A stretch of DNA of 64,000 bases, taken from positions 62,001 through 126,000 of the forward strand of contig JARUHJ010000004.1 in the NCBI GenBank assembly GCA_029667085.1, written 5' to 3'. Below, in pieces: positions 1,768 through 2,079 of the stretch. The translations under genes and the position numbers were made by a program. How positions within the stretch are numbered: the stretch's first letter is position 1; the number at the start of each line of letters is the position of its first letter. The notes beneath the pieces are model-generated. The model did not search any database. It was not told the origin of the DNA and saw only the letters and a program-made list of their open reading frames with translations. This DNA comes from Deltaproteobacteria bacterium IMCC39524 (GTDB taxonomy: Bacteria > Desulfobacterota > Desulfuromonadia > Desulfuromonadales > BM103).

Positions 1768-1783
1768 TGGCACATCTGATGCT
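1768..1783 (+). promoter_or_regulatory. Sigma-54 promoter of nifH
   Basis: TGGCAC (1768-1773), five bases, then ATGCT with the GC at 1781-1782. This matches the -24/-12 consensus TGGCAC-N5-TTGCW at all key positions except one T. Start of transcription would be near 1794, leaving a 286-base leader before nifH. Confidence 0.8.
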
Positions 1784-1806
1784 ATATAGCTTTGACATCA
1801 CAAAAA

Positions 1807-1876
1807 AGGTACACAGCTGTACCTCCTTCAGGCAAAGAGGCCCATTGAGTGAGTAACTGCATTCGTGGGCCTTTTC
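1807..1876 (+). promoter_or_regulatory. nifH leader antitermination module 1 (ANTAR type) with terminator T1
   Basis: P1 (1807-1824) is a perfect 6-bp stem AGGTAC/GTACCT with the hexaloop ACAGCT (A1813, G1816). P2 (1831-1842) is GGC/GCC around AAAGAG (A1834, G1837). Terminator T1 pairs AGGCCCA (1838-1844) with TGGGCCT (1866-1872) and is followed by TTTT, so its 5' arm uses the loop end and 3' arm of P2. P1 begins 25 bases after the GC of the sigma-54 promoter. Confidence 0.75.
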
Positions 1877-1900
1877 CATTTTGAGAATTCTGTAAATATC

Positions 1901-1964
1901 GCGGCACAATGATTGCGCCGCCGGGCATTGACGCCCTATCCAAATTGCTTGGGTAGGGCGTTTT
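1901..1964 (+). promoter_or_regulatory. nifH leader antitermination module 2 (ANTAR type) with terminator T2
   Basis: P1 (1901-1921) pairs GCGGC-A-C with G-C-GCCGC with one A-C mismatch; the loop starts AATG (A1908, G1911) and is seven bases, or five if A1908 pairs T1914. P2 (1923-1936) is GGGC/GCCC around ATTGAC (A1927, G1930). Terminator T2 is an 11-bp stem (1931-1941 with 1951-1961) followed by TTTT, and it shares 1931-1936 with P2. So nifH transcripts must pass two conditional terminators. Confidence 0.75.
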
Positions 1965-2079
1965 GTATTTGTACATCAGGTTTTTCTTCGGACACATCAA
2001 AGGCGATGCCGCCGCGGGGAAGAACAGATGCACAGCAAACCAAGGCTTCTATGGGAGGCCTCACGAAAGGAACAAGACA

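Follow-up and report, generated by a model that had tools for sequence, protein, structure and literature searches.

Two putative ANTAR-type attenuator modules in series in the nifH leader of a Desulfuromonadales bacterium and its relatives

Results

The nifH leader probably contains two attenuators in series

The leader of nifH in the window (the whole stretch of 64,000 nucleotides analyzed here) probably contains two ANTAR-type transcription attenuators arranged in series, which together would gate nifH. A preliminary description of this DNA had proposed two conditional ANTAR terminators in series, and the anatomy of the leader, its conservation among relatives and the nearby gene for a REC-ANTAR protein all fit this, with the qualification that the second module is a variant. 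The locus contains the following features:

1 to 63, plus strand: 3' end of the gene for a REC-ANTAR response regulator (187 aa, GnfR-like; the gene is G000:C4:61500-62063)
1742 to 1763, plus strand: putative terminator of the upstream operon (ORFs 190-1658), a weak five-pair terminator-like site assigned this role by its place
1768 to 1783, plus strand: sigma-54 promoter by sequence, TGGCACATCTGATGCT, with GG and GC ten bases apart
1807 to 1824, plus strand: module 1 P1, AGGTAC-ACAGCT-GTACCT, hexaloop ACAGCU with A1 and G4 by sequence
1831 to 1842, plus strand: module 1 P2, GGC-AAAGAG-GCC, hexaloop with A1 and G4, 6-nt linker from P1
1838 to 1876, plus strand: terminator 1 (hairpin 1838-1872 and U-rich tail), sharing 1840-1842 with the 3' arm of P2
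1901 to 1921, plus strand: module 2 P1, GCGGCACAATGATTGCGCCGC, loop of 5 or 7 nt, a variant of the ANTAR P1
1923 to 1936, plus strand: module 2 P2, GGGC-ATTGAC-GCCC, hexaloop with A1 and G4, 1-nt linker from P1
1930 to 1967, plus strand: terminator 2 (hairpin 1930-1962 and U-rich tail), sharing 1933-1936 with the 3' arm of P2
2080 to 2958, plus strand: nifH coding sequence (292 aa; Pfam Fer4_NifH, E 3.1e-130)

As the preliminary description had it, a sigma-54 promoter stands ahead of the leader; the site was found at 1768-1783, and sites of this type lie within 420 nt of the start codon in 67 of the 78 leaders scanned. Transcription would start near 1796, giving a nifH leader of ~280 nt. The terminator-like site at 1742-1757 was rejected as a part of this leader, since it lies upstream of the promoter and therefore outside it. 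The regulator beside nifH carries clear Response_reg and ANTAR domains (Pfam E values of 9.4e-25 and 4.2e-22, respectively), and its gene ends ~2 kb upstream of nifH, with the ORFs from 190 to 1658, the last of them encoding an FKBP-type isomerase, in between. Directly upstream of the regulator gene lies a gene for an ADP-ribosylglycohydrolase (DraG-like; L003:6347-7339), a neighbor that would fit post-translational control of nitrogenase in the same locus.

The coordinates first given for module 1 (1807-1876) and module 2 (1901-1964) are correct, module 2 reaching 1967 when its tail is included. The overlap that had been described between terminator and P2 is likewise present in each module, with 1840-1842 and 1933-1936 common to both structures. 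Because these bases are shared, either P2 or the terminator can form in each module, never both. Folding of successively longer RNAs from 1796 gave P1 and P2 first, and in the longer RNAs the terminator replaced P2, in both modules. In these folding calculations, a structure constrained to keep P2 is less stable by about 12.7 kcal/mol in module 1 and 11.7 in module 2, a difference that would have to be made up for by a bound protein or by kinetics. Compared with shuffled sequences, the fold of module 1 has a z of -3.59 (2 of 200 shuffles were as good) and that of module 2 a z of -4.25 (none of 200).

Module 1 has all the parts of an ANTAR target: two stem-loops of at least 3 bp with 6-nt loops carrying A1 and G4 (ACAGCU and AAAGAG), a 6-nt linker that falls within the natural range (5-12 nt, E. 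faecalis eut) and an intrinsic terminator that overlaps P2. A first register for its P2 was ruled out, as the relatives show GGC-AAAGAG-GCC. The minimum-energy fold adds a pair to P1 of module 1, A1-U6, which is often impossible in the corresponding loops of relatives. Module 2 likewise has a P2 hexaloop with A1 and G4 (AUUGAC) and an overlapping terminator. A comparison with the 4227 families of Rfam gave no match at the gathering score anywhere in the window; with E values of up to 10 allowed over 1760-2100, three weak matches appeared, the best (E 0.077) being Spot_42 over module 2.

A module scan of both strands of the window, which reported units whose terminator was strong or whose P1 fitted, showed nifH to be the sole doubled leader. 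Three further modules are single, with A1/G4 hexaloops in both hairpins:

100 to 136, plus strand: single ANTAR-type module between the ANTAR gene and the ORF at 190, with P1 loop AAUGAG, P2 GAGC-AAUGAC-GCUC and an overlapping terminator
7684 to 7722, plus strand: single ANTAR-type module before a radical-SAM gene at 7743, which by its features we take to be nifB
25489 to 25529, plus strand: single ANTAR-type module before a homocitrate-synthase-like gene (nifV) at 25552

A genome-wide pattern search for P2 hairpins of the module 1 type returned 123 matches, compared with 44 for the reversed-pattern control; among 29 loci and 20 fetched stretches from this search (100 of the 123 places were listed), the nifB stretch is the only module.

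Doubled nifH leaders are frequent in the order

Of the 136 genomes of the order, 76 have NifH, and each of these contributed its upstream DNA to the analysis. Three second NifH-like copies were added, of which two could be scanned, to give 78 leaders; L083, which has no recognizable NifH start, was left out. With a strict unit defined as an A1/G4 hexaloop hairpin whose 3' arm overlaps a terminator, 51 of the 78 leaders contain at least two units, 24 contain one and three contain none. Two of the three unit-free leaders are second NifH-like copies and all 51 doubled leaders are among the 76 nifH leaders, which thus divide into these 51, 24 with one unit and one with none. In 1560 dinucleotide shuffles (20 per leader) scanned under the same rule, one unit arose 13 times and two units never. 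The strict count includes two leaders (L016 and L068) in which a P1 was taken as a third unit, and one (L023) in which a unit overlaps the promoter; this last leader is doubtful, and 50 is therefore a safer figure than 51.

The loop letters could also be left free. Without any letter requirement, 59 of the 76 leaders contain at least two non-overlapping units, and four contain three (not inspected singly). Among the 139 letter-free units, loop position 1 is A in 120 (86%) and position 4 is G in 131 (94%). This preference arises without being required and thus lends independent support to the ANTAR loop rule. When A or G was allowed at position 1, 57 of the 76 leaders had at least two units, some of these counting a P1 as a unit. 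Judged from these counts of sequence patterns, the doubling in nifH leaders is far beyond chance. Four of the leaders with one strict unit each (L048, L052, L065 and L070) share a motif, GGGACGGTCYATCCGACGTCCAAGGGTYACGCCGGC, before nifH, which is possibly structured.

Module 2 is a variant of the ANTAR-type module

A second ANTAR module had been proposed at 1901-1964, and its P2 and terminator agree with this; it is not, however, a plain copy of module 1, having a P1 loop of its own and a very short linker. The preliminary description had also given A1/G4 loops to every P1 and P2, which by sequence holds for three of the four loops and fails for P1 of module 2. The latter can be read as a 7-nt loop, AAUGAUU, that keeps A1 and G4, but additional pairing shortens this loop in the minimum-energy fold. 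In an alignment of 48 module 2 sequences (alignment A2, consisting of 49 candidates minus L036, which was dropped by eye), the closing pair 14-20 is C-G in 31 rows, A-U in 12 and A-G in 5, and this covariation supports a 5-nt P1 loop in 43 of the 48 rows. An A1/G4 hexaloop is not what these P1 sequences contain: position 14, which would be A1 in a 6- or 7-nt reading of the loop, has A in 17 of the 48 rows and C in the other 31. In contrast, C13, A15 and G17 are invariant in all 48 rows, and the 5-nt loop has the form A-N-G-R-Y in most of them.

The rows of alignment A2 were chosen by their P2 stem and terminator, together with the strict A1/G4 rule, and P1 played no part in the choice. The pairing of P2 and terminator 2 in this alignment is high partly by construction; since both were required of the rows, the independent covariation support is that of P1. 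The A1 and G4 letters are also invariant by construction, here and in the strict scan, and it is the letter-free scan that lifts this rule. In P1, six of the eight pairs show changes on both sides and 86.7% of cells pair, with pair 12-22 open in 25 rows of the alignment. When P1 and terminator 2 are taken together, 92.6% of cells pair, compared with 41-47% when the partners are slid, 12 of the 19 pairs have substitutions in both partners, and values this high did not occur in any of 500 shuffles. P2 of module 2, which by selection pairs in all cells, shows weak covariation on its own, with one pair changed on both sides and 181 of 500 shuffles doing equally well.

The linker between P1 and P2 also sets module 2 apart. 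It is 1 nt long in the window, outside the natural range, and in 49 two-unit leaders it measures 0-3 nt in 38, 4 nt in one and at least 5 nt in 10, some of these 10 resting on a partial or different P1 pick. The module 1 linker measures 6-16 nt in 37 of the same 49 leaders. The P1 picks for module 1 in the 49 leaders include 32 hexaloops with G4, of which 12 also have A1, position 1 of this P1 loop often being G. On the alignment evidence, module 2 is thus a variant with a 5-nt P1 loop and almost no linker, and because of these two properties it may be held in a different geometry.

Doubling appears to be a trait of the order

NifH was found in 201 of the 277 genomes of the class, ~125 of which lie outside the order. 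Forty leaders were sampled from these, hand-picked among the matches listed. With A or G allowed at loop position 1, 32 of the 40 contain one unit, six contain none and two (L207 and L244) contain two, these two being double counts in which both units share one terminator. The letter-free scan gave one unit in 31, none in six and two in three (not inspected singly). The P2 hairpins outside the order are mostly of the module 1 type, GGC-AAAGGC-GCC, and module 1 looks like the form common to the order and the outside leaders. The comparison with Geobacter that had been drawn from this leader therefore needs to be turned around, as the leaders on the Geobacter side (31-32 of the 40 sampled) carry one module. 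Because most of the sampled class leaders outside the order are single, doubling looks like a trait of this order. Three of the outside leaders from the same class (L208, L213 and L226) have a different, GC-rich stretch of clearly more than 100 nt between their single terminator and nifH, which looks structured by eye.

A covariance model of module 2 was searched against 271 genomes of the class and then against 395 genomes across the phylum. It gave 58 matches of at least 51 bits, which by construction include the training sequences, in 57 genomes, all of them in the order of the window. Weaker matches within the order score up to 38.4 bits, a few of them lying before nifH, and the best scores outside the order are 29.2 bits in the class search and 31.4 bits in the 395 phylum genomes. 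Fifty-six of the 58 strong matches share a contig with nifH, and all 56 lie on the same strand, 20-291 nt upstream of the NifH match; the remaining two are in genomes that have no NifH match (G004 and G119). One leader, L037 (G001), has two modules of the module 2 type before nifH, the first with the P2 loop GAUGAC, and no module 1 is visible in it.

A third element lies between module 2 and nifH

Downstream of terminator 2, the leader contains a further structure:

1969 to 2036, plus strand: element C, a long interrupted hairpin with no terminator, apical CATC-AAAGGC-GATG and a conserved GCCGCC

Across the leaders, the apical part of element C reads CATC-AANGRN-GATG, with GCCGCC on the 3' side. 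Its core, with up to two mismatches and within 420 nt of the start codon, is present in 52 of 76 leaders, and it lies within 220 nt of the start codon in 51 of 78. Genome-wide, the core pattern occurs in 66 of the 136 genomes and the reversed pattern in none. Eleven inspected matches away from nifH, as well as three looser ones in the genome of the window, all lie within open stretches of at least 170 codons and thus look like coding chance. At E values of up to 10, Rfam gave no plus-strand match over element C and one minus-strand match that touches 1969-1975. In some leaders module 2 occurs without element C, or element C without a strict module 2, which indicates that element C is a separate trait.

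For the alignment of element C (alignment A1), 53 rows with up to three mismatches to a 17-letter pattern were picked, and L081 was dropped by hand; the conservation of letters in it is partly by construction. RNAalifold returned no pairs for this alignment, in our view because the sequences do not share a common register over the outer stem of element C. A flank-shuffling test on 51 leaders gave a mean of 20.3 cross pairs, compared with 11.8 after shuffling, and a mean z of -2.0. The z is below -1.5 in 33 of the 51 leaders, and the pair count reaches the 5% level singly in 14. Five leaders (L010, L031, L057, L059 and L066) show no energy signal (z from -0.1 to 0.35), and in L068 and L074 the cross pairs are not in excess. 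From these comparisons, the outer stem appears to vary in sequence and to stay paired.

The loop of element C fits A1/G4, but the pattern used for selection favors those letters, and no second hexaloop hairpin was seen at a fixed place beside it. The CsrA consensus includes GGA in a loop; since the loop of element C has no GGA in this genome, CsrA binding there was set aside. Element C may be another site of ANTAR contact, an element that affects stability or an aptamer of unknown kind. One possibility, which we hold only tentatively and consider rather improbable, is a leader with three checkpoints, in which a canonical attenuator is followed by an attenuator of new geometry (with P1 stacked on P2) and by element C, whose ANTAR-type hexaloop would lie a short way upstream of the RBS. 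The same regulator would then act twice on transcription and afterward on either translation or the stability of the mRNA. Another possibility is that element C is a riboswitch-like RNA of a kind not yet described.

Proposed mechanism and alternative explanations

The genome of the window encodes two REC-ANTAR proteins. The second (L004:6550-7113, G000:C3) is on another contig and, by eye, closely resembles the one encoded near nifH. In the order, an ANTAR domain is found in 106 of the 136 genomes, made up of 73 of the 76 NifH genomes and 33 of the 60 others, and most NifH genomes have a single ANTAR match. The three NifH genomes in which no ANTAR match was found (G063, G075 and G084) are drafts that are 89, 99 and 88% complete, respectively. 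The position of the gene beside nifH, the domain it encodes and published work on ANTAR proteins suggest that the REC-ANTAR protein acts on the leader RNAs.

In the mechanism that we favor, RNA polymerase would start at the sigma-54 promoter. With the GnfR-like REC-ANTAR protein inactive, terminator 1 would form and an RNA of ~80 nt would be released, while polymerase that reads through would meet terminator 2 and release an RNA of ~170 nt. The active protein, by analogy phosphorylated and dimeric, would hold P1 and P2 of module 1 and then those of module 2, and both terminators would be blocked as a result. The same protein presumably binds both modules, the signal is presumably fixed nitrogen, and termination in series would be expected to lower leakage, giving a tighter shut-off and a steeper response. 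We regard two ANTAR-type attenuators in series as the best reading because P2 and terminator are mutually exclusive in both modules, the serial arrangement is conserved, the A1/G4 preference appears unprompted, P1 of module 2 covaries and a REC-ANTAR gene lies nearby. Against it stands module 2 itself, whose P1 departs from the hexaloop rule and is separated from P2 by only 0-3 nt in 38 of the 49 two-unit leaders. We also count against it the 24 of 76 leaders with one strict unit and the one with none, the weak covariation in P2 of module 2, the presence of A1 together with G4 in just 12 of 49 module 1 P1 picks and the 3 of 76 genomes that have no ANTAR match.

Alternatively, module 2 may answer a second input, either another RNA-binding protein or a second ANTAR paralogue, which would make the leader a two-signal AND gate. 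Several of the properties that mark module 2 as a variant would suit this explanation: its P1 has invariant bases of its own (C13, A15 and G17) and a covarying extra closing pair, its linker is mostly very short (0-3 nt in 38/49), and its matches of at least 51 bits are confined to the order and, on contigs that also carry nifH, to positions 20-291 nt upstream of that gene. This genome also has a second REC-ANTAR protein that could serve. However, module 2 has the same A1/G4 type of P2 loop as the other modules, the single ANTAR match in most NifH genomes means that a second ANTAR protein is not generally available, and the paralogue found here looks too similar to have a different loop preference. 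A second input is thus unlikely in our estimation.

Less likely still, by a clear step, is that module 1 alone is regulated and that module 2 is a structured spacer or a partly efficient constitutive terminator that affects mRNA level or stability. Terminator 2 is indeed very stable (-22.8 kcal/mol), with much of its sequence conserved, and most of the sampled class leaders outside the order manage with a single module. Yet if module 2 were a plain terminator, nothing would explain why the 5' arm and loop of P2, located at the terminator's edge or beyond it, are kept, nor why the loop letters are preferred even when the scan does not require them. Finally, the notion that ordinary terminators merely happen to stand beside small hairpins with A and G in the loop can draw on the commonness of small hexaloop hairpins (letter-free shuffles gave one unit in 51 of 380 and two in 2 of 380), but given two units in many genera, none of 1560 shuffles with two strict units, unrequired loop letters at 86% and 94% and the covariation in module 2 P1, it hardly deserves further consideration.

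Discussion

Nitrogenase is a costly enzyme, and gating nifH twice is thus a plausible place for tight control. Attenuators are usually discussed one at a time; our findings suggest that most nifH-bearing members of this order apparently check twice before making nitrogenase. A natural serial pair, from which either module can be removed, makes the gain from doubling a terminator switch testable.

One of the closest known systems is that of Geobacter sulfurreducens, in which Ueki and Lovley reportedly described in 2010 the antitermination of nif genes by GnfR, and in which the nif operons lie behind sigma-54 promoters. A REC-ANTAR regulator gene presumably lies close to nifH there as well. The locus described here resembles the GnfR system in its REC-ANTAR gene near nifH and its sigma-54 promoter, and it differs from the GnfR side in that most of the 40 sampled class leaders outside the order have one module of the module 1 type. 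The gnfR gene of G. sulfurreducens is listed as GSU2822 in the part of PMC7962754 that concerns it.

ANTAR attenuators before nitrogenase genes are already known as predictions. Section 10 of PMC3369931 predicts ANTAR RNAs in three nitrogenase units of Pelobacter carbinolicus, which our leader resembles in having such RNAs before nitrogenase genes, and it gives at least 13 attenuators in six units for Desulfotomaculum acetoxidans, so that more than one attenuator per transcription unit is already implied. Unlike the present work, the text of PMC3369931 consulted here describes no nifH leader with two modules, no variant P1 and no third element. A structured RNA before a nif gene is also known from the nifV motif (WRC-61-5; PMC11109978), a weak riboswitch candidate in Geobacter with four representatives; it is like element C in this respect and differs in the gene it precedes. 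The portions of the literature searched, which leave aside the supplementary tables of PMC3369931 and the paper of Ueki and Lovley 2010, contain no two-module nifH leader, variant P1 or element C, and priority for the doubled nifH leader is uncertain.

A further comparison is with EutV. According to the main text of PMC3369931, ANTAR RNAs need a dual hairpin with A1 and G4, many of them with an overlapping terminator, and EutV needs A1 and G4 of both loops as well as a suitable linker, a 3-nt linker drastically reducing eutP induction in E. faecalis. This last result counts against module 2, with its linkers of 0-3 nt, as an ANTAR target. As far as the consulted part of PMC8934654 describes it, EutV makes base-specific contact with its RNA at G4 alone in the structure of the complex, and it binds the P1 loop and the P2 loop about equally tightly when each is isolated. 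The nifH leader is like the EutV target of E. faecalis eutP in its A1/G4 hairpins, its overlap of P2 and terminator and its REC-ANTAR protein, as far as these are described in the corresponding parts of PMC3369931 and PMC8934654, and module 1 fits this model. Unlike eutP, it has two serial modules behind a sigma-54 promoter, and its module 2, with a 5-nt P1 loop and a linker of mostly 0-3 nt, provides a test of how strict ANTAR proteins are toward the P1 hexaloop and the linker.
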